Assembly (NCBI RefSeq): GCF_001294645.1
Contig: NZ_CP011868.1
Span: 3,534,001-3,598,000, forward strand
Direction: 5' to 3'
DNA: 64,000 nucleotides
Source of the DNA: Pseudonocardia sp. HH130629-09
GTDB lineage: Bacteria; Actinomycetota; Actinomycetes; Mycobacteriales; Pseudonocardiaceae
The number at the start of each line of letters is the position of its first letter. Within the stretch, counting starts at the first letter, position 1. The position numbers and the translations under genes were made by a program. A model generated the notes under the pieces. It saw only the letters and a list, made by a program, of their open reading frames with translations. It searched no databases and was not told the origin of the DNA. Positions 15,565-24,778 of the stretch are shown one piece after another.

Positions 15565-16860
15565 ATGTCGCCCCAACTCCTCTCCATCCTGGTCCTGGCC
15601 GGCATGTTCGTCGTCGCGACGATGCTGCCGATCAACATCGGGATCCTGGCCTTCGTCGCCTCGTTCGTGGTCGGGACCTTCGCCCTCGGTCTCGACGAGA
15701 AGGAGATCTTCGAAGGCTTCCCGGTCTCGTTGTTCATCACCGTCGTCGGCGTCACCTACCTGTTCTCGGTGGCGAAGCTGAACGGCACGATCGACCTGCT
15801 GGTCGACCAGGGGATTCGCCTGGTCCGGGGCCGCGCGATCCTGGTGCCCTGGGTCCTGTTCGCCGTCGCCGCGGTGCTCACCGCGCTGGGCACGTTCACC
15901 CCGGCCGCCGTCGCGCTGCTGGTGCCGATCGGCATGAACTTCGCCTTCAAGTACCGGATCAGCCCGCTGATGATCGGCATGATGGTCATCTGTGGTGCGC
16001 ACGCCGGCGCGTTCTCCCCGATGGCCGTCTCCGGTGCCCTGGTCTTCGGGATCGTCGCCGACTCCGGACTCGCGGTCTCCCAAGCCGTGCTCTTCTTCGC
16101 CAGCCTCGCGTTCAACGCCCTGCTGGGCGGCATCACCTACCTGCTGCTGCGCAACCGGGGCGAGGAGAGCTTCGTCGAGCGGCCCGAGACCACCGACACC
16201 GACGACGACCTGCCCACCGGGGGCGGCGGCGTCGCGACACTGGTCCGTACCCGGCCGCAGGTGATCACCTGGCAGCAGCGTGCCACCCTGGTCGCGCTGG
16301 TCGGCCTCGTCATCGGCGCGCTGGCCTTCCACCTGCAGATCGGCTTCCTCGCCCTGGCCGCCGGCGCCGTCCTGGCCCTGCTCGACCGCGAGAACCTGGG
16401 CAAGGCGATCGACGGCATCAGCTGGCCGACGATCCTGCTGGTCGCCGGCATGGTGACCTACGTCGGGGTGCTGGAGCACGCCGGGACGATCGAGTGGGTC
16501 TCCGAGGGCGCGGTCCACCTGGGCGCGCCGCTGCTGGTCGCGCTGGTTCTCTGCCTGGTCGTCGGCATCACCTCGGCGTTCGCCTCCTCGACCGCGATCC
16601 TGACCGCGGTGATCCCGATGGCGATCCCGCTGCTGCTCACCGGCTCGCTGCCCGCCGCGGGGGTCATCGCGGCCATGGCCATCTCGACCACGATCGTCGA
16701 CGTCTCGCCGTTCTCCACCAACGGCGCGCTGGTGCTGGCCAACGCCCGGGGCGTCGACCGGACCCGCTTCTACCGCCAGGTCATCACCTACACCTGCGGC
16801 ATCGTGGCCCTCGGGCCGCTCGCCGCGTGGGCGGTCCTGGTCCTGCCCGGGGCGTTCTGA
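15565..16860 (+). CDS. MatC/SLC13-type di- or tricarboxylate transporter
   Basis: 431 residues, strongly hydrophobic, about 11 membrane segments. The N-terminal half resembles the MatC dicarboxylate carrier domain (MLPINIGILAFVASFVVG, FTPAAVALLVPIGM). The C-terminal half repeats the pattern (SSTAILTAVIPMAIPLL, VDVSPFSTNGAL), typical of SLC13/ion-transporter inverted repeats with Ser/Thr-Pro substrate motifs. A hydrophilic loop lies near residues 200-230. Co-transcription with prpF is likely. Confidence 0.85.
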   Translation: MSPQLLSILVLAGMFVVATMLPINIGILAFVASFVVGTFALGLDEKEIFEGFPVSLFITVVGVTYLFSVAKLNGTIDLLVDQGIRLVRGRAILVPWVLFAVAAVLTALGTFTPAAVALLVPIGMNFAFKYRISPLMIGMMVICGAHAGAFSPMAVSGALVFGIVADSGLAVSQAVLFFASLAFNALLGGITYLLLRNRGEESFVERPETTDTDDDLPTGGGGVATLVRTRPQVITWQQRATLVALVGLVIGALAFHLQIGFLALAAGAVLALLDRENLGKAIDGISWPTILLVAGMVTYVGVLEHAGTIEWVSEGAVHLGAPLLVALVLCLVVGITSAFASSTAILTAVIPMAIPLLLTGSLPAAGVIAAMAISTTIVDVSPFSTNGALVLANARGVDRTRFYRQVITYTCGIVALGPLAAWAVLVLPGAF

Positions 16861-16920
16861 GGTCCCCTCGACGTCGGTCCGGGTCCCGCCACGCGACCTG
16901 GGTCCGGGCCGACCCGCACC

Positions 16921-16957
16921 GTGTGCCGGTACCTGCTCGCAGCGGGTACCGGCACAC
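16921..16957. terminator. Bidirectional hairpin terminator
   Basis: Perfect 13-bp arms (GTGTGCCGGTACC / GGTACCGGCACAC) with an 11-nt loop, between the convergent carrier gene and the end of the nitrile hydratase operon. Confidence 0.75.
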
Positions 16958-17039
16958 GGCCGTGCGGGGCCGGTCGTGCGTCGTCGCGGGCCGTCGTCCT
17001 GGTCGGGCGGCGGTCGGGCGGCGGTCGGCGCTGCCCCGC

Positions 17040-17783
17040 TCAGGCGGTGAGCCGGACGGCCTCGGCGGCGGCGCGCACCCAGCCCGCACCGACGTCGTCG
17101 ACCGGGGCGGTCACCGCGGCCCCGACGAGGACGGGCCGCAGGCCAGGTCGGTCGGTGCCGATCGCCAGGACCAGGGCGAGGGCACAGAGCTCCCAGGGGT
17201 GGTCGAGGAGCCGTTCGTCGAGCACGTAACCCGGCAGCGCCCTCGCCCACTCCGGGTCCCCGGGGGGCGCCGGGCCGGTGGACGCGACGGGCACGCCGCG
17301 CAGGGCAGCTCGTCCGACCTGCGACTCGAGGTCGGCCGGGCCACGGGTCTCCCCCGCCGGCACCCGGGGGACCACGAGGTGGTGGGAGCGGGGCGAGTCG
17401 GTCCAGATCGCCGTGCGCGCCGCGGGGTCGTCCGGCGTCACGGTCTCGAACAGGTACTCCGAACGCGGCCGGTACCAGCTCGGCGGCACCCCGAGCACCG
17501 GCCAGCCGCTGCAGCCGGGGGCGCCGGGCAGCACGACGTTGCGCACGGTGTCGGTGTCGTGGTGGGCCCGCCAGATCCGACCGCAGGCGCACCGGCCCAG
17601 GTCGTCGCCCAGCGCGCCGGCGCCACCGTCGCGCGCGGCGCCCGACCAGGCCCGGGCCACCGCCCGGGCCCCGGTCCGGGGCCCCACCTCGTCGGCGTGG
17701 TGGTCGTACCAGCGGTCGACGGCCTCGATGGTGGTGAGCCCACGGCGCAGCGCCGCGCGTCCGACCAGATCGACCATCAGCAT
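17040..17783 (-). CDS. Cysteine-less nitrile hydratase alpha-like protein fused to an accessory-like tail
   Basis: 247 residues. Residues 5-165 align with the true alpha subunit encoded upstream: DEVGPRTGARAVARAW (31-46) against [16 protein letters not shown], then DTDTVRNVV, WPVL, SWY and PRSHHLVVPRVPAG. The metal claw CTLCSC is gone: the segment reads LPGAPGCSG (85-93), one cysteine only, so the cobalt site cannot form. A separate CAC triplet lies at 65-67. Residues 192-245 (LDHPWELCALALVLAI) resemble the accessory protein motif [14 protein letters not shown]. It is thus a dead alpha joined to an accessory-type domain. Its ATG overlaps the FhuF-like stop (TGATG), last gene of the operon. 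A role as assembly scaffold or metallochaperone is inferred. Confidence 0.75.
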   Translation of the reverse strand: MLMVDLVGRAALRRGLTTIEAVDRWYDHHADEVGPRTGARAVARAWSGAARDGGAGALGDDLGRCACGRIWRAHHDTDTVRNVVLPGAPGCSGWPVLGVPPSWYRPRSEYLFETVTPDDPAARTAIWTDSPRSHHLVVPRVPAGETRGPADLESQVGRAALRGVPVASTGPAPPGDPEWARALPGYVLDERLLDHPWELCALALVLAIGTDRPGLRPVLVGAAVTAPVDDVGAGWVRAAAEAVRLTA

Positions 17784-18625
17784 CACGGCGTGCTCCCCGG
17801 TGGGTTCGGCAGCGGGTTCGGCAGCGAGTTCGGCCGCGGGTCCGGCGCCGCGCGGGCGCGGAACGAGCGGGCGGCGTCGGCCAGGTCGGCCTCGACGGCG
17901 GCGGCAGGTCGTACCGGACAGGCGCCGCAGTACCGCCCGGTGGCGGAGGTGGTCCGGAAGGCGAGGCAGCACGCCCGGCGACGCACCGACATCCAGTCGG
18001 TGCCGTCGACGCGCACCGCACCGACGACGACCAGACCGGCCAGCCCGGCGTCGTGCAGCAGCGCCCGGGTCGGCCCGACGAGGGCGTCGGGACGCGGGCG
18101 CCGCCAGGACAGGTGCAGCATGCTCAGCGCCACTGCGTGCGCGACCGCGGCCCGCAGCGTGCGATGCCCGGCCCGGGTCCGTACCGCGAGGTCGTCGGCG
18201 AGCGGCAGCAGCGCCCCGTCGAGCAGCGACGCCCGCAGCGCTGCCCGGTCCCCTCGGGCGGGGCGCCCGGGAGCGGCGAGGGCGAGCCAGCCCGGGGTGT
18301 GGGGGTCCGGGCCGAGGTAGACCACCTCCGGCCGGGCGTCGAGCAGGACGTCGAGCTCGTGGAACGCGGCCAGGACCGGGGCGGTGAGGCGCAGGGCGTA
18401 GCGGTCGAGCAGCAGGACCGCCGCGACGGCACGGCGGTCGGTCCCGCGCTCGTCGGCGACGCGGTCGAGGGTGTCGTCCAGCTCCGGCCCGAGGACCCGG
18501 TGGGCCGGGGACCAGCCCTGCGGACGACCGGACCGGGCGACGAAGCGGGGCCCGAGCGGCACGCGGGAGACCGGCACCGTGCCGGGTCCGCCGTCGGCGG
18601 GCGCGGATGCGGGGAGCGGCGTCAT
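17783..18625 (-). CDS. FhuF-like [2Fe-2S] protein in the nitrile hydratase operon
   Basis: 280 residues. The C-terminal part has the FhuF-type iron-sulfur signature: RRRACCLAF with Cys219-Cys220, then Cys233-x2-Cys236 (YCGACP). The middle holds the alpha-helical FhuF-like region (LLLDRYALRLTAPVLAAF). FhuF family proteins bind [2Fe-2S] and reduce ferric chelates. Here it lies 53 bp after the accessory gene and overlaps the cysteine-less alpha-like gene, so a redox step in metallocentre assembly is a plausible inference. The Pro-rich C-terminus (NSLPNPLPNPP) comes from a short 12-bp tandem repeat near 17803-17836. Confidence 0.75.
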   Translation of the reverse strand: MTPLPASAPADGGPGTVPVSRVPLGPRFVARSGRPQGWSPAHRVLGPELDDTLDRVADERGTDRRAVAAVLLLDRYALRLTAPVLAAFHELDVLLDARPEVVYLGPDPHTPGWLALAAPGRPARGDRAALRASLLDGALLPLADDLAVRTRAGHRTLRAAVAHAVALSMLHLSWRRPRPDALVGPTRALLHDAGLAGLVVVGAVRVDGTDWMSVRRRACCLAFRTTSATGRYCGACPVRPAAAVEADLADAARSFRARAAPDPRPNSLPNPLPNPPGSTP

Positions 18626-18678
18626 GACGACGGCACCGGCCCGGTCCGTGGGGAGACGGACCGGGCCGGCGACCGGGT

Positions 18679-19089
18679 TCAGCGCGTCGCCGGCGAGATC
18701 GCGACCGGCTCGCGCCGCGCCTCGTGGTGGTTGGCGTTGCGCGGGGTGGACAGGACCTGGCGGGTCCGCTCGTCGAGGGCGAGGGAGTCCGACAGGGCAC
18801 CGCTGGAGGCCAGGGTGGTCTCCAGCGCCTCCAGCCAGTGCAGGTAGTAGCTCCACGGCTCGCCGCCGTCGCCCTTCTCCCACGAGCGGATGGAGTCGAT
18901 CAGCGAGAGCTGGAACTCGCTCCACTCGTAGTGGCCCTCGTGGTAGGCGGCGACGGCCATCGCGAAGGCCCGCACCTCCCACGGCTCGGAGAACGGCTTG
19001 TCGGCGCCGGGCATGTCGCACACCAGCTTCTCGATCCGCCGGCGGGCGTCGCCCAGCTCGGTGGCGTCGGTGCGCACCCCCTCGCTCAT
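18679..19089 (-). CDS. Nitrile hydratase accessory (activator) protein
   Basis: 136 residues. Contains the beta-N-terminus-like accessory signature: [20 protein letters not shown] (33-52), [12 protein letters not shown], then [14 protein letters not shown] (77-90). Such proteins (NhlE/P14K-like) hold the alpha subunit during cobalt insertion and subunit exchange. ATG 19089 overlaps the alpha stop (ATGA), so production is coupled to alpha. Confidence 0.9.
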
Positions 19090-19712
19090 GCCCCGGCCGC
19101 CTCGGTGACCACCGGCTTCGGCGCTCCGACCCCGATCATCGAGTCCCGGGTGACGAGCTCGGCGAGCTGCTCCTCCGACAGGTGCTCGCTGCCGGCCGGG
19201 CGCTGCGGGAGCACCCAGTAGCGCAGCTCGGAGCTGGAGTCCCAGACGCGGATCTCGACCGAGTCCGGCAGGGGGTAGCCGAAGTCCTCGGCGAGGACCT
19301 TGCGGGGCTCGCGGACGATGCGCGCCCGGAACGGCGGCGCTTTGTACCAGTTCGGCGGCAGGACCGGCCACGGGTAGCAAGAGCACAGGGTGCAGACGAT
19401 GACGTGCTGGACGGTGTCGGTGTTCTCGACGACGACCATCTCCTCGCCCTGCAGGCCGCCGATGCCCAGCTCGCGACAGGCCGCGGAGGCGTCGGCGAGC
19501 AGACGCGCCTTGAACTCCGGGTCGGTCCAGGCCTTCGCGACGACCTTCGCGCCGAGCTGCGGACCGACCTCGTTCTCGTAGACCTCGACGAGGCGGTCGA
19601 CCGCCTTCGTGGTCACGACACCCTTCTCGATGAGGACCGACTCCAGGGCCTTGACCCGTGCGGCGATCTCCTCCTGGGTGCGGAGCGGGGTGTCGGTGGG
19701 GTTCGCGGTCAT
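19086..19712 (-). CDS. nthA: Nitrile hydratase alpha subunit, cobalt type
   Basis: 208 residues. Claw motif V-CTLCSC at residues 107-112; Thr at the second position marks the Co(III) class (Fe enzymes have Ser). Cys110 and Cys112 are normally oxidized to sulfinate and sulfenate. Other family blocks: [39 protein letters not shown] and [14 protein letters not shown]. It hydrates nitriles to amides together with the beta subunit, encoded 3 bp upstream. The order beta-alpha-accessory is usual for Co enzymes. Confidence 0.97.
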
Positions 19713-19715
19713 GGG

Positions 19716-20420
19716 TCAGGCTCCCTGGGTGGCGGGGACGGGGGTGAGGTAGGGCTCCCACACGTCGAAGTAGTTGACGCCGTTGGGGTCCGCGGCCTCG
19801 GGACCCCACAGCTCGGCGGCCGTGAACTTGATGGTGTAGAGGTGCTCGGGGCAGTCACCGAGGCCGTTGCCGGCGGTGTCGGGGTAGAGGAAGGTGCCGT
19901 GCGCCGCGGTGATCACGCCTCGGTGCCCGCGGATGTAGCGCGCGCGGCGGGTGTGTCCGTACGGGCTCTCGTTCCCGATGACGACCTCGTCGCCGACGGA
20001 GAACCGGGCCTCCTTGTCGGACTCACGGTTGGCGGGGAACCCGTTGCTGACCGCCCAGTCGACGAACTCGACGATCTCGGTGTCGGTCTCGCGCTCGGGC
20101 AGCGGCGCGTCCGGGTTCTCCAGGTAGTACTGGGTGCGCTTCTCGAGGTCGGCCGGGTCGAGGATGCCCGCGACCTCGGCGTAGTGCTCGATCGTGTGCA
20201 TCCAGTGCTCGTAGTAGTTCGAGAGCAGGTACTCCGCCGGGTCCATCTTCTCGATGCCGTGGCGGAACTGGTCCACGTTGAACAGTCCGGCACGCGCGCT
20301 CTGGGCGAACATGGGAAAGACCCGCTTCTCCCACTCGGCGCGGAACACGGCCTCGCTCATGTGGTCGTTCTCGACAGGTCCGAGACCGTCGGTCCCGCCG
20401 AGGTCGAAGACTCCGTTCAC
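19716..20420 (-). CDS. nthB: Nitrile hydratase beta subunit
   Basis: 234 residues beginning MNGVFDLGGTDGLGPV, the family N-terminus, with YYEHWMHTIEHY, FSVGDEVVIGNE, HTRRARYIRGHRGVI and the DVWEPYL C-terminus. GTG 20420 overlaps the amidase stop (GTGA). Beta packs around the alpha metal centre and lines the substrate channel; no feature suggests loss of function. Confidence 0.97.
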   Translation of the reverse strand: MNGVFDLGGTDGLGPVENDHMSEAVFRAEWEKRVFPMFAQSARAGLFNVDQFRHGIEKMDPAEYLLSNYYEHWMHTIEHYAEVAGILDPADLEKRTQYYLENPDAPLPERETDTEIVEFVDWAVSNGFPANRESDKEARFSVGDEVVIGNESPYGHTRRARYIRGHRGVITAAHGTFLYPDTAGNGLGDCPEHLYTIKFTAAELWGPEAADPNGVNYFDVWEPYLTPVPATQGA

Positions 20421-21961
20421 TGCTGTCCTCCTACTGTGGCGAGGGCCGGTGGGGCGGGGAAGCCGCCGACGGCCTGCTCGAAGGTGTGCGCGACCCGAAG
20501 GACGGTCGCGTCGTCGAAACGCCGGCCGACGATCATCAGACCGACCGGGAGCCCGTCGACCAGCCCGGCCGGCACCGAGACCGCGGGGTGACCGGACACG
20601 TCGAACGGGGCACAGTTGCCGACCATCCCCAACGCGGTAGGCAGGTAGGTGTCCAGCCCGGCGTCGAGCCCGATCAGCTCCGGCGCGGTGTAGGGCAGGG
20701 TCGGCATGACCAGCACGTCATAGCCACTCAGCGCCCGGTCGTAGGCCGCACGCAGCTCCAACGCGAGGTTGCGGGCCATGCCGTAGTAGGCACCGCCCCC
20801 GTGGCCGAAGGTGTAGCCACCCGAGAGCCCGACCAGCTTGACCGTCTTGGACAACTCCGACCCGCGGGCATGCCGCTGACGGTGGTAGTGCGCGATCAGC
20901 TCCGGGTCGTAGAGACCCGGATAGTTCATGCCGTAGGCGTTGCCGTCGACCATCTGGTAGGCCGCACCCTCGGTCGCGATGACGTTCCACACCGCCATCC
21001 CGTCCAGGTGCCACGGGATCGACACCTCCTCCGCCACCAACCCGGCCCCAGCCAGAGCGCCGACCGCGGCACGCACGGCCTCGTCGACGGCCGGGTCGCT
21101 CTCCGGGCGGCCGAAACCCTCGACCACGATCCCGACCCGCAACCCCGCCGCCGACTGCTCCAACGCGGCGAGGTAGTCGACCGGGTCCAGGACGGTGGGC
21201 TGACGGGCGTCGAACCCGTCGACACCCGCGAGGACCGTGAGCATCCGTGCGGCGTCGGACACCGTCCGGGTGATCGGACCCAGGTGGTCGATCGTGGCCT
21301 CGATCGGGAACGCCCCGGTGTAGGGGACCAGCCCGTGAGTGGGCTTGTGCCCCACCGTCCCGCAGAACGCACTCGGAATCCGGATCGAACCACCCTGATC
21401 ACCACCCACGGCCAGATCCACCCCACCCGAGGCCACCAGCGCCGCGCTCCCACTCGACGAGCCACCGGCATTACGGCCGGTGTCCCACGGGTTGCGCACC
21501 GGCCACGGACGCGAGGTGAAACTCGCACCCGAGAAACACAGGTCCTCACACACCGACTTCCCGGTGATCGTCGCCCCCGCCGCCAGCAGCCGGGGCACCA
21601 CCGTGGCGTCCCGGGACGGGACGAAACCCTCGACCGTCGCCGACCCGTTGGTCATCGGCACCCCGGCGAGGCAGATGTTGTCCTTCAACGCCACCGTGCG
21701 CCCGGCCAGCGGCCCCTCGGCGGCACCCGGCACCGACGTCGTCACATACCAACCACCGAGCGGGTTGTCCGCAGGCTCCGACCAGGCCCGCTGGGGCGTC
21801 TGCGGCGCCGAGGCCCGGTAGAGCTCCTCGACCCGGTCGGAAGCAGCCAGCGTCGCCGTGACCGCCGGACCGAACTCCGCCAGCTCGGCCTCGGACAGAC
21901 CGAACGCGTAGTGCTCGTTCAGCGCCGCCAGCCGGGCGGCATCGGGAGGGGGAATCGCCAT
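20417..21961 (-). CDS. Amidase (amidase-signature family)
   Basis: 514 residues. Ser-cisSer-Lys triad visible: Lys93 (ALKDNI), Ser within GGSSSGS (168-172), nucleophile Ser192 (GGDQGGSIRIPS). It hydrolyses the amide made by nitrile hydratase to acid plus ammonia and is the first gene of the operon. I chose ATG 21961 because GAGGAG lies about 10 nt upstream; a GTG 18 bp earlier would bury that ribosome site. A good promoter lies just upstream. Confidence 0.95.
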   Translation of the reverse strand: MAIPPPDAARLAALNEHYAFGLSEAELAEFGPAVTATLAASDRVEELYRASAPQTPQRAWSEPADNPLGGWYVTTSVPGAAEGPLAGRTVALKDNICLAGVPMTNGSATVEGFVPSRDATVVPRLLAAGATITGKSVCEDLCFSGASFTSRPWPVRNPWDTGRNAGGSSSGSAALVASGGVDLAVGGDQGGSIRIPSAFCGTVGHKPTHGLVPYTGAFPIEATIDHLGPITRTVSDAARMLTVLAGVDGFDARQPTVLDPVDYLAALEQSAAGLRVGIVVEGFGRPESDPAVDEAVRAAVGALAGAGLVAEEVSIPWHLDGMAVWNVIATEGAAYQMVDGNAYGMNYPGLYDPELIAHYHRQRHARGSELSKTVKLVGLSGGYTFGHGGGAYYGMARNLALELRAAYDRALSGYDVLVMPTLPYTAPELIGLDAGLDTYLPTALGMVGNCAPFDVSGHPAVSVPAGLVDGLPVGLMIVGRRFDDATVLRVAHTFEQAVGGFPAPPALATVGGQQ

Positions 21962-21995
21962 CGGGGTGGTGCTCCTCACGTCGGGGGATGCGAGA

Positions 21996-22024
21996 AACCT
22001 AGGACCGACCCCTCATCGTGTCAA
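21996..22024 (-). promoter_or_regulatory. Sigma-A type promoter of the nitrile hydratase operon
   Basis: Reading the minus strand: TTGACA (22024-22019), 17-bp spacer, TAGGTT (22001-21996), about 35 bp before the amidase start. The -35 is a perfect consensus and is part of an inverted repeat. Confidence 0.65.
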
Positions 22025-22044
22025 CGCTTGCAGACACATTGACA
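22019..22044. promoter_or_regulatory. Inverted repeat over the -35 of the nitrile hydratase operon
   Basis: TGTCAACG-N10-CATTGACA, 7 of 8 positions symmetric, one arm being the -35 hexamer itself. Position suggests a repressor site or an activator overlapping RNA polymerase; the ArsR protein encoded upstream is the natural candidate. Confidence 0.55.
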
Positions 22045-22086
22045 AGATCCGGAAACACGGCGACCCACGCCGGCAACACGGCGTGG

Positions 22087-23517
22087 TCAGGGGTGCGCGG
22101 GGCCGTCGTCCATCGAGCCGAAGGTCGTGCCGCGGGCCTCCGCCAGGTACAGCGGCTGGTCGACGTGGTGCTCGCCGTGCAGGTCCAGGGTCCCGCGGGG
22201 CAGGTCGTAGCGGCCGCGCCGGATCTCGTCGGCGACGGCCACCGGGTCGGTCGAGCGGACCTGCCGGGCCGCCGCGGCCCACACGTGGATCGCCTCGAAC
22301 ATCGACTCCGACAGCGACGACAACGGCGGTGCCCACCGACCGAACCGCAGCCGGTACCGCTCCAGGAGCGTCCCGTTGCGCTCGGTCTGCAGGTGCTGGA
22401 AGTAGCCGGACACCCCGTGGATCCCCTCGGCCGCGGCCGGCCCGATCCGTTCGAGGGTCGCCTCGTCCATGGCGGGGCCCAGGCTCACCGTGCGGTCCCG
22501 CAGCCCCAACGCGTGGCACCGGCGCTCGAAGGCCGCGGCGTCGGCGCCGACGAAGGTGCTCAGCACGACGTCGGCACCGGATGCGGCGATCCGCTCGACG
22601 AGCGGGGTGACGTCCCCGCCACCGAGGGGGGCGTACCCCTCCCCGACCAGCACCGCCCCCTGGCCGGGGAGGATCTCGCGGGCGACGGCGTTGACCGACC
22701 GGGGCCACACGTAGTCGTTGCCCGCGAGGAACCAGCGCCGGCCGCCGGCCGCACGCATGACCGGACGGGCCGCCGTCGCGAGCTGGGTGGCCGGCCGCTC
22801 CCCCAGCCGGATCCGCAGACGGGACTCCCCGCCGCCCTCGTTCATGTTGGTGTGCACGACCAGCACGTCCTGCCCGGACAGGGCGGCCGAGACGGCGTGG
22901 TAGGTCGCCGAGGTCGTCATCAGGAAGATCGTGCGGCAGCCGGCCCGGACCAGCCGCATCGCCTCCAGGGCCCCGGTGCCGGGGTCGGTGGCGTCGTCGG
23001 CCTCCAGCAGCTCCAGCGGCCGCCCCCCGATCCCGCCCGAGGCGTCGATCTCCTCGACGGCGAGCGCGGCCACGTTCCCCACGGCCGAGGCGAACAGGCT
23101 GCCCGACCCGGAGCGGCTGGTGATCACCCCGATCCGCGGTCCGTCGGCGGGGCCCTCGGGCAGCGGATGGCCGCGGCGACGCATCAGCCACTCCAGCCCA
23201 CGGCGGTCGATCTCGGCGTCGAGCCGGACACGGGTCCCACCGGGCGCGTCGTCGAACCGCAGCCGGATGCGGCCCCGCCAGGGCTGGTCGTGGGTGATGG
23301 TGATGGCCCGGGAGACACGCAGGTCGCTGATCCGGCCCAGCACGTCTACCGGGGGCCCGCCGGCGATCGGTGCGCGCAGCGCGACCGGGGCACCGACGGC
23401 GACCCGGTCGCAGACCGCGTCGAACAGCCAGCCGGCGCCCTCGGTGCCGAACCGGTCGAAGACCACCGTCGGGGCCGCGGCGGCGAACCTCTCGACCGCG
23501 AGCGCGATCGACCCCAC
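22087..23517 (-). CDS. SRPBCC domain fused to an AmiC-like ligand-binding domain; probable nitrile/amide sensor
   Basis: 476 residues, no signal peptide. Residues 1 to about 115 look like an SRPBCC/AHSA1 ligand pocket (RISDLRVSRAITITHDQPW, then GTRVRLDAEID). From about 126 a type I periplasmic-binding fold of the AmiC/urea-amide class follows (RIGVITSRSGSGSLFASAVG, NVAALAVEEIDASGGIGGR, and later SGYFQHLQTERNG). AmiC-like proteins (NhlC/NhhC) regulate nitrile hydratase operons in Rhodococcus by sensing amides in the cytoplasm. It lies 28 bp after the ArsR gene, likely co-transcribed, and ends just before the amidase promoter. The SRPBCC fusion is unusual. Confidence 0.7.
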   Translation of the reverse strand: MGSIALAVERFAAAAPTVVFDRFGTEGAGWLFDAVCDRVAVGAPVALRAPIAGGPPVDVLGRISDLRVSRAITITHDQPWRGRIRLRFDDAPGGTRVRLDAEIDRRGLEWLMRRRGHPLPEGPADGPRIGVITSRSGSGSLFASAVGNVAALAVEEIDASGGIGGRPLELLEADDATDPGTGALEAMRLVRAGCRTIFLMTTSATYHAVSAALSGQDVLVVHTNMNEGGGESRLRIRLGERPATQLATAARPVMRAAGGRRWFLAGNDYVWPRSVNAVAREILPGQGAVLVGEGYAPLGGGDVTPLVERIAASGADVVLSTFVGADAAAFERRCHALGLRDRTVSLGPAMDEATLERIGPAAAEGIHGVSGYFQHLQTERNGTLLERYRLRFGRWAPPLSSLSESMFEAIHVWAAAARQVRSTDPVAVADEIRRGRYDLPRGTLDLHGEHHVDQPLYLAEARGTTFGSMDDGPAHP

Positions 23518-23545
23518 GGTCAGCGCCGATGTGACGACACGCCGG

Positions 23546-23920
23546 TCATCCGGTCGCGTCGGCCCGATACGTCATGCCCTGATCCTCCACCGCCGCCCCC
23601 ACCTCGTCGAGGGTCGACTGGAACAACGCCCGCAGCAGGGCGATCACATCGGCCGCCGCGCCGTGCGGATCGATCGCGTAGTAGCGGAACCGGCCCGAGC
23701 GTCGCTCGGTGACCAGCCCCGCGACGCGCAGCACCCGCAGGTGGGTGGACACCGCGGTGCGCCCGACGGAGGTGATGCGCTCGGCGAGGTCTCCGGCGCT
23801 GCACTCCTCCTGCTCGGCGAGCACCGTCAAGATCTCCCGGCGGACGGGATCGGCGAGCGCGTCGAAGGCGAGGCCCGCTTCCTTGCCGCCGCCGCCCGAA
23901 GCGTCATGATCTGATGACAC
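23546..23920 (-). CDS. ArsR-family winged-helix regulator (NhlD-like)
   Basis: 124 residues: FDALADPVRREILTVLAEQE, CSAGDLAERI, AVSTHLRVLRVAGLV (recognition helix) and RRSGRFRYYAI, the classical ArsR/SmtB wing. No metal-binding Cys cluster is visible, so a metal sensor is unlikely. ArsR plus AHSA1-type genes are often paired; here the AHSA1-like domain is in the next protein. Together they probably control the nitrile hydratase operon. GTG 23920 follows the -10 almost directly. Confidence 0.9.
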   Translation of the reverse strand: MSSDHDASGGGGKEAGLAFDALADPVRREILTVLAEQEECSAGDLAERITSVGRTAVSTHLRVLRVAGLVTERRSGRFRYYAIDPHGAAADVIALLRALFQSTLDEVGAAVEDQGMTYRADATG

Positions 23921-23933
23921 GTCAGGGATAATA
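23911..23933 (-). promoter_or_regulatory. Promoter of the ArsR gene, possibly leaderless, with imperfect dyad
   Basis: Minus strand TATTAT at 23933-23928 lies only 7 nt from GTG 23920, leaving room for transcription to start at or next to the start codon. An imperfect dyad CTGA-N7-TCAG (23911-23925) overlaps the start codon, an expected autoregulatory position. Confidence 0.45.
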
Positions 23934-23935
23934 GC

Positions 23936-24778
23936 GTGATCCGCTCCGGGACGCGTGCCCGCGTCGCGGAGCCGTGCCCACGGCCACCGGGACCGTGCGC
24001 GGTGTTGGCCGGTGCCCGCTCATCCACCGCGATCGCCGAACACACCCGGGACGTCGGTGTCGGCCTGCTGGTCGAACTCGCCGACCGGCTCGGCATCGAC
24101 CCGCAGCACGCCGTACTGGTGGTGCCCCACGAGTCCACGATCCGCAGGCTGCTCCAGCAACTCGACCCCGTCGCGCTGGAGTCCGCTCTGCACGCCTGGA
24201 CCAGCGCACAGCTTGCCGAGCGCCCGACCGACACCGGTCGGCCGCGTCGAGAGCAACGGCGGGTGTGGGCGCCGGACGGCAAGACCGTACGTGGCGCCCG
24301 TACCCCTGACGGGCAGCCACACCTGGTCTCGATGATCGACCAGACCAGCGGCGCCGTGCTGGCCCAGACCCCGGTCCCGGCCAAGCACACGCAGCTCTCC
24401 GCCGCGGCGACCGTACTGTCCGAGCTGGACCTGCGCACCCGGGTGCGGTTCGTCTACGCCGACGCCGGGTTCGCCGGACGCCTGCTCGACTGGGCGACTA
24501 CGATCCTGCAGACGACGGTCGAGGTCGTCCGCAAGCCGCCTGAGCAGCGCGGATTCGCCGTCCTCCCGCGGCGCTGGGTGGTCGAACGGACCCTGGCCTG
24601 GCTCACCGCGCACCGCCGCCTGGCCCGGGACTACGAACGCCACCCCGCAGTGTCCGAGGCCATGATCCGCTGGGCGGCGATCAACACCATCACCCGCCGC
24701 ATCGCCCGCGGCGAACCCGCGACGCCAGCAGAAGTACGTAGTCACACCCTCAACATGACCTTCTCAAACACTCTCTAA
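23936..24778 (+). mobile_element. Chimeric transposase remnant: ISAs1-type front joined in frame to IS5-type back
   Basis: One open frame (about 280 codons) made of two unrelated transposases. Up to about 24425 it matches the ISAs1 family (LAGARSSTAIAEH, HESTIRRLLQQLDP, VWAPDGKTVRGAR, LVSMIDQTSGAVLAQ). From about 24435 it matches the IS5/IS427-type C-terminus (FVYADAGFAGRLLDWATT, EVVRKPPEQRGF, RRWVVERTLAWLTAHRRLA). The ISAs1 part lacks its N-terminus and its second and third catalytic acids; the IS5 part lacks its first. It cannot transpose. Terminal repeats were not found. Both neighbours look cut: the MFS gene downstream lacks its start. Confidence 0.8.

Follow-up and report, generated by a model that had tools for sequence, protein, structure and literature searches.

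The nitrile hydratase operon and its last gene

The window analysed here, a stretch of 64,000 nucleotides from the 6.3 Mb genome of Pseudonocardia sp. HH130629-09, carries a nitrile hydratase (NHase) gene cluster whose last member encodes P0001 (17040..17783, minus strand), a protein of 247 residues in which an NHase-alpha-like part without the metal claw is joined to an accessory-like C-terminus. Cobalt-type NHase (Co-NHase) is an industrial enzyme, and how its cobalt is inserted and its cysteines are oxidised is understood only in part. The cluster runs along the minus strand, in the order ArsR-type regulator (23546..23920; PF01022, E 9.2e-7 on the 92-residue called part), periplasmic-binding-type protein upstream of the operon (22087..23517; PF13458, E 1.2e-70; presumably AmiC-like), amidase (20417..21979, with a possible start at 21961; PF01425 and NF005565), NHase beta P0005 (19716..20420; TIGR03888, 256.1 bits), true NHase alpha P0004 (19086..19712; TIGR01323, 293.3 bits), NHase accessory or activator protein P0003 (18679..19089; TIGR03889, 68.8 bits with a cut-off of 46), FhuF-like (2Fe-2S) protein P0002 (17783..18625) and P0001. 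The true alpha bears the claw CTLCSC, which we take to be the mark of a Co-type NHase.

The amidase and beta genes overlap by 4 bases, beta and alpha are 3 bases apart, alpha and accessory overlap by 4, the accessory and FhuF-like genes are separated by 53, and the FhuF-like and fusion genes share a single base within a TGATG stop/start overlap (17781..17785, minus strand), the ATG of which is the start codon of P0001. Because the genes from the amidase to P0001 overlap or sit 3-53 bases apart, they likely form one predicted operon, as an earlier note on this DNA, made from its letters alone, had proposed; a promoter and terminator scan of 16800-24200 found none. A DDE transposase (24002-24778, plus strand; PF01609, E 5.6e-14) adjoins the ArsR end of the cluster. 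Separately, the Gly-Leu pair before PPNWY is missing from the true alpha of this operon, the sole such case among 44 alphas tallied; this absence, either an in-frame loss of six bases or an assembly error, could impair this NHase.

The alpha-like region of P0001 covers residues 10-168 (17280..17756, minus strand). The Pfam NHase_alpha profile passes its cut-off on residues 10-107 (E 1.3e-12; 47.9 bits against 27.2), the solved relatives found by phmmer in the PDB comprise NHase alpha chains, the best matches (residues 11-166), and thiocyanate hydrolase gamma chains, and P0001 is 35% identical to the alpha of its own operon across residues 10-164, all of which bears out the earlier note's description of an alpha paralog. 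The equivalog TIGR01323 scores residues 12-168 at 61.7 bits and fails its cut-off of 249.85. The claw itself, in the form CTLCSC or CxLCSC, is absent and LPGAPGCSGW stands in its place, as that note had also seen; what it overlooked is that the third claw cysteine position is retained, as a Cys three residues ahead of a conserved Trp.

The structure model of P0001 (predicted local distance difference test, pLDDT, 74.9; predicted template modelling score, pTM, 0.58) superposes over residues 34-165 on the NHase alpha chain 2cz0_A (VIA Z 11.2, root-mean-square deviation, rmsd, 3.5, 124 aligned), and Foldseek retrieves NHase alpha with E 3.9e-5 (template modelling score, TM, 0.38 by query length; rmsd 8.6). 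This prediction of the fusion alone agrees with the kinship seen in the sequence, and is supportive rather than independent because the predictor's input alignment held four true alphas.

The accessory-like piece occupies residues 183-247 (17043..17237, minus strand), and the claim that the last 55 or so residues resemble the NHase accessory protein is well supported. A profile of six fusion C-terminal pieces, two of them from broken copies, was compared by hhalign with a profile of seven accessory proteins, giving a probability of 93.8 and a score of 43.9 over 52 columns (E 1.8e-7 for one comparison); none of 200 column shuffles reached that score (best 18.5), and the reversed profile gave 8.4. 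A model of the C-terminal piece, built from four fusion C-termini with accessory proteins left out of the alignment (pLDDT 83.9), returned nothing significant from Foldseek (best E 2.8, an unrelated protein). When 45 chains were re-aligned to it with VIA, the top was the Co-type NHase beta chain 1ugp_B, at a Z of 4.4 that is weak alone for so small a helical piece (rmsd 2.8, 57 aligned), and the next reached Z 2.3. The accessory protein is itself akin to the N-terminus of NHase beta (PF21006, E 1.9e-9; same part of 1ugp_B, E 0.39), and the likeness of the C-terminal piece to 1ugp_B fits together with the profile result. The architecture of P0001 and the loss of its claw are thereby established.

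Three elements distinguish the alpha-like part: the motif C65-A-C67-G-R-I-W (17571..17591), invariant as CxCGRxW; C91-S-G-W at the third claw cysteine position (17502..17513), kept as C-x-G-W; and the pair H134-H135 (17379..17384), all on the minus strand and all present in 6/6 fusion copies, a count that takes in the two broken copies by their pieces. The distance from first to third cysteine is 26 residues in the four intact fusions, two of which (G063 and G061) have no other cysteines, whilst the window copy has one more and G079 two more. The claw served to pick out 61 distinct true alphas in the fetched loci, and from all of these CxCG upstream, CxGW and HH[LIV] downstream are absent, though 45 do carry some Cys within 50 residues before the claw; the invariant cysteines are a gain of the fusion. 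The CxC falls directly ahead of the hairpin strand where the operon's true alpha reads GGLQG, the Gln of which we take to be alpha-Gln90, near the metal. In the Rhodococcus enzyme, alpha-Gln90 is the object of a mutational study (title of structure 2zcf).

The earlier note had concluded that P0001 has no cobalt site. This holds for the claw, and not for the protein as a whole: the three newly arranged cysteines could bind a metal or form a disulfide, and the Cys/His pattern naturally suggests a new metal or thiol site.

Could P0001 do without a metal altogether? As a catalytically silent subunit or regulator, it would replace alpha in NHase or in the alpha-accessory complex and tune assembly or stability, its cysteines being structural, for instance as a disulfide. 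P0001 has lost the claw and retained both the alpha fold and the GWPVLGxPPSWY region, an accessory/beta-N-like part is attached, and the gene sits within the operon, all as such a role would have it. However, all six copies retain the HH pair as well as the new cysteines, beyond the needs of a bare scaffold, and one structural disulfide leaves one of the three cysteines free; we consider this role unlikely, though first among the alternatives to the reading we prefer. Conversely, the same residues might form a CxC/C/HH metal site of a new enzyme or sensor on the alpha fold, acting on nitriles, amides or cobalt apart from NHase maturation. The new invariant Cys and His set would suit this, as would an operon with an ArsR regulator, a periplasmic-binding-type protein and an amidase, but a tail resembling the accessory protein points to NHase components as binding partners, and the residue set is not known to have a precedent, no search for one having been made; we regard such an activity as quite improbable.

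Claw-lacking relatives of NHase alpha are already known as leaders of ribosomal natural products (NHLP; described in the available parts of PMC2887384), which raised the thought of a precursor peptide of that kind. We rejected it as scarcely credible: P0001 aligns through the metal region, which is not deleted, is not matched by TIGR03793 at E 1, and has a C-terminal domain of accessory-like character.

A small family that stays with nitrile hydratase

The fusion, taken as an alpha relative with the C-terminal part, is found in 6/62 Pseudonocardia genomes including that of the window, and the same six carry it among the 390 genomes of the taxonomic family. The matches listed for the family search, sorted by E-value, open with the six fusions, all at 3.5e-47 or better, and the others begin at 4e-34. 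Even samples of the order (397 genomes) and phylum (396) showed no further fusion. Matches there, counting the window's own genome, came from 3/397 genomes at E 1e-30 and 9/396 at E 1e-28, respectively; four other loci that we read (L125-L128) all have the CTLCSC claw, and the remaining matches, judged by match ends alone, each stop by residue 193 or cross a stop codon. Scanning 84,980 species with a single peptide pattern, which diverged copies could escape, returned three loci, in Pseudonocardia sp. ICBG1293, P. ammonioxydans CGMCC 4.1877 and P. dioxanivorans CB1190. Homologs on plasmids came to three records, two annotated nthA and the third an ordinary alpha with CSLCSC. The fusion family is real and small, its known bearers being a few actinobacteria of the soil.

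Each of the six fusions is either inside a Co-NHase cluster or no more than about 6 kb away from one, with two operon types among them, and this linkage upholds the tie to Co-NHase that the earlier note had proposed for a fused alpha-accessory mimic; homologs scattered without NHase neighbours, which it had named as telling against the idea, were not what we found. In Pseudonocardia sp. ICBG1293 (G079) and in G026 the order is amidase-beta-alpha-accessory-fusion, and in the window the fusion stands downstream of the accessory and then the FhuF-like gene. The order in G063 and P. ammonioxydans (G061) is beta-alpha-accessory-small protein-second amidase-fusion. In P. dioxanivorans (G016), a frameshifted fusion lies about 5.4 kb upstream of the NHase cluster, with a transposase-like gene (named by eye) upstream. 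The small protein, of 74-75 residues, is present in both fusion operons of its type (L066 8368-8595, L067 4988-5212); the L066 copy has no Pfam match and by eye is like a GatC/AtzG-type amidase partner. Another protein, of 386-402 residues and membrane-like by eye, adjoins the fusion gene in two genomes (L066 4887-6095, L069 5075-6235), and its L066 copy is also without a Pfam match.

In a phylogenetic tree, the four intact fusions form one clade (support 100/100) apart from 48 alphas, on long branches that leave the clade's place among the alphas unsure. Because they group in this manner, the fusions are not fresh local duplicates; and because the true alphas that neighbour them fall into different tree groups, the fusion was kept across the two operon types, not remade in each.

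The intact fusions of the three other genomes are 41-64% identical to P0001. In three pairs, amino-acid identity among the fusions exceeded that of all 200 neutral simulations (0.63 against at most 0.51, 0.48 against 0.375, and 0.48 against 0.37), which indicates that the four intact fusions are under purifying selection, relaxed or rapid, but constrained. The NG86 estimate of dN/dS, the ratio of nonsynonymous to synonymous substitution rates, ignores the strong codon bias here and is 0.45 for the fusion against 0.15-0.25 for the amidase, beta, alpha and accessory genes (window vs G079); it is 0.47 for the FhuF-like gene (window vs G062). For the C-terminal piece of the broken G026 fusion it is 0.37 against the window and 0.30 against G079, two N-terminal rows of that copy having been dropped, as the broken stretch is not in one frame.

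Is the fusion then a duplicate on its way out, an alpha-accessory gene pair that was joined by stop loss and now drifts, having no function of its own? A fusion of this kind is easily reached. In two other actinobacterial genomes the fusion profile spans alpha and accessory through a single TAG (L127 in G578, and G535); at L127, which we read, the two lie in one frame with the single TAG between them, whilst G535 is known from the profile match alone. Such pairs would appear to be one stop-loss away from a fusion, which readthrough or loss of the codon would give. The narrow and patchy distribution, the two broken copies out of six and the fast evolution also suit a dying duplicate. Against this stand the three other intact open reading frames (ORFs), which at 41-64% identity keep the same cysteine spacing, selection beyond the neutral null, and a single clade that has stayed with two operon types; we find drift slightly harder to accept than a silent subunit.

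The FhuF-like neighbour

The gene preceding the fusion carries the FhuF signature CC-x12-C-x2-C, correctly read by the earlier note (C219, C220, C233 and C236; 17918..17971, minus strand), and these four cysteines are invariant in 7/7 aligned sequences. P0002 matches part of the Pfam FhuF profile at 13.4, below the cut-off of 25.2; of six subfamily members tested, the one in G006 alone passes (31.4). Its C-terminus, NSLPNPLPNP, is encoded by a 12-base tandem repeat of 3.8 copies (17802-17846).

A profile of this subfamily finds 17 places in 16/390 genomes of the taxonomic family. Six are at Co-NHase clusters (the window, G062, G072, G025, G005 and G123), with a hydrolase gene in between in G072, a degenerate copy in G025, and a copy behind a second amidase and cut by the contig end in G005. 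Three are at cobalt importer genes, namely cbiMNQO in G006 (by Pfam) and G004 (by similarity), and cbtA-cbtB in G165, where CbtA has E 1.3e-52, CbtB reaches 26.4 bits, just below its cut-off of 27, and the FhuF-like match is the weakest of the 17. Two more are near a formamidase gene (G016, G001), and one, in G022, precedes a siderophore/B12-type importer (FecCD, Peripla_BP_2), as expected of an ordinary FhuF. For the other five (the second G001 copy, G078, G108, G112 and G116), none of the neighbouring genes that we examined is telling. Amongst weaker matches, no NHase or cbi match was seen at L083, L084 and L124, and no NHase at L081 and L082, where cbi was not searched.

Several of these clusters merit a description in their own right. 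In G123, of another genus (L121 7875-12036), the FhuF-like gene is divergent from an amidase-beta-alpha-accessory operon, and in the draft genome G005 the true alpha of the NHase cluster is split by a frameshift (L070 3051-3257). In G165, also of another genus (L122 6777-8640), cbtB and cbtA, which probably encode a cobalt transporter, come after the FhuF-like gene on its own strand. At L074 2588-12547 (G006) and L075 (G004), an ArsR regulator, cbiMNQO, a DUF3099 protein, the FhuF-like gene, a periplasmic-binding-type protein and an FmdA formamidase occur together, in what by gene content is a joining of cobalt import to amide use.

Considering these neighbours, the balance for the subfamily points to cobalt supply, though not exclusively, and does so independently of the fusion. 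P0002 is probably a separate helper, a predicted 2Fe-2S reductase for cobalt supply, on account of its gene neighbours. The earlier note had joined it to the fusion as one module, and this we rejected because the FhuF-like gene accompanies the fusion in the window cluster only: a Co-NHase is near 6/6 fusions, but the FhuF-like gene shares the cluster in 1/6, and in P. dioxanivorans it is more than 1 Mb away from the fusion. Five other genomes have an FhuF-like gene at an NHase cluster with no fusion seen, and in one of these, G005, the contig ends inside the FhuF gene and a fusion behind it is possible. Two independent helpers are the better reading.

Possible roles and known systems

We favour the view that P0001 is a maturation helper, serving in metal loading, thiol protection or the removal of bad alpha by mimicking the alpha-accessory complex, and would put its probability at roughly 40%. 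This keeps the maturation, metal-delivery or repair role suggested in the earlier note as a conjecture for the fusion by itself. The family is an old and fast-evolving one, derived from an NHase alpha gene fused to part of an NHase accessory gene and now seated in Pseudonocardia NHase operons. With an alpha-like half that would stand in for apo-alpha and a C-terminal half that would stand in for the accessory/beta-N partner, the single chain might imitate the alpha-accessory complex of self-subunit swapping. The CxC...C set, with HH, in place of the claw would serve the true alpha as a carrier of cobalt or as a thiol/disulfide relay. That P0001 interacts with alpha, beta or accessory, that it performs metal or thiol chemistry, and that it is a helper are inferred.

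Because an alpha-accessory complex, an active fusion and a beta-N-like chaperone are all in print, we would expect a protein that combines mimics of alpha and of accessory/beta-N to bind NHase components. According to the available parts of these papers, the accessory protein and alpha form an alpha-activator2 (alpha-accessory2) complex, in which cobalt enters alpha under reducing agents before the loaded alpha is swapped into the enzyme (PMC3511329); an engineered beta-alpha-activator (P14K) fusion is active (PMC4709657); and a beta-N-terminal-like subunit acts as swapping chaperone for a Streptomyces enzyme (PMC7329996).

Several observations weigh against the helper. Whatever P0001 does, it is dispensable for Co-NHase maturation, because it is present in only 6/62 genomes of the genus, and all six fusion clusters retain a normal accessory gene. 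Two of the six copies are broken, that of P. dioxanivorans by a frameshift and that of G026 by frameshifts and a stop, and the family evolves fast, as its dN/dS indicates. The curated TIGR03889 model matches none of the six fusion C-terminal pieces at E 1, nor the whole of P0001. The alpha fold of the model is partly circular, the whole-chain superposition by Foldseek is loose (TM 0.36-0.38, rmsd 7.6-10.4), and pLDDT drops below 50 at residues 89-98, around C91, which makes the model untrustworthy for the geometry of the candidate site. Our best guess still ranks the helper first, followed by the silent subunit, the dying duplicate and, well down, a new activity.

Perhaps P0001 goes further and is a new kind of metallocentre maturase, in which the claw was rebuilt (CxC, third claw Cys, HH) into a transient cobalt- or thiol-transfer site that would load or repair the true alpha, the cobalt-linked FhuF-like reductase acting as an independent helper; we advance this tentatively, as a proposal that is on the unlikely side. 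As a natural fusion of alpha and accessory in which the claw was lost and other cysteines were gained, P0001 would reveal the construction of the maturation complex, and might be put to use for better metal loading. Likewise, the occurrence of an FhuF-like subfamily next to Co-NHase, cbiMNQO and cbtAB hints that cobalt supply includes a reductive step. Among the matches listed in the open-licence literature, none describes the fusion, or an FhuF with NHase, and the available parts of PMC7689651, PMC4531530 and PMC7587978 hold nothing on either.

How does the pair compare with what is known? With NHase alpha (TIGR01323/PF02979), P0001 shares fold and sequence over about 155 residues, but it lacks the CTLCSC claw and about 16 N-terminal residues, and has the new CxC and HH and an extra C-terminal domain; about 11 residues after PPSWYRP are absent in the window copy and present in P. 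ammonioxydans. With the accessory or activator proteins (TIGR03889; NhlE, NhhG, P14K) it has in common some 52 C-terminal columns and the PWE(L)R..A...A and W..AL motifs, whereas its C-terminus is a part only, and much diverged. The alpha-activator2 complex and the engineered beta-alpha-P14K fusion, as the available parts of PMC3511329 and PMC4709657 present them, also hold alpha and activator in one unit; P0001, in contrast, is a natural single chain, claw-less, and encoded beside normal alpha and accessory genes. NHLP leader peptides (TIGR03793) are claw-less alpha relatives as well, but according to the available parts of PMC2887384 they have lost the metal region in a deletion of 63 residues, and possess a Gly-Gly site and a tail with many heterocyclizable residues: the region that P0001 rebuilds is missing from NHLP, which bear a core peptide. 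Finally, P0002 shares CC-x(n)-C-x2-C and part of the profile with the FhuF siderophore-iron reductases (PF06276, TIGR03951), and differs from them in that 9/17 places of its subfamily are at Co-NHase or cobalt importer genes, siderophore genes having been sought only among the named neighbours.

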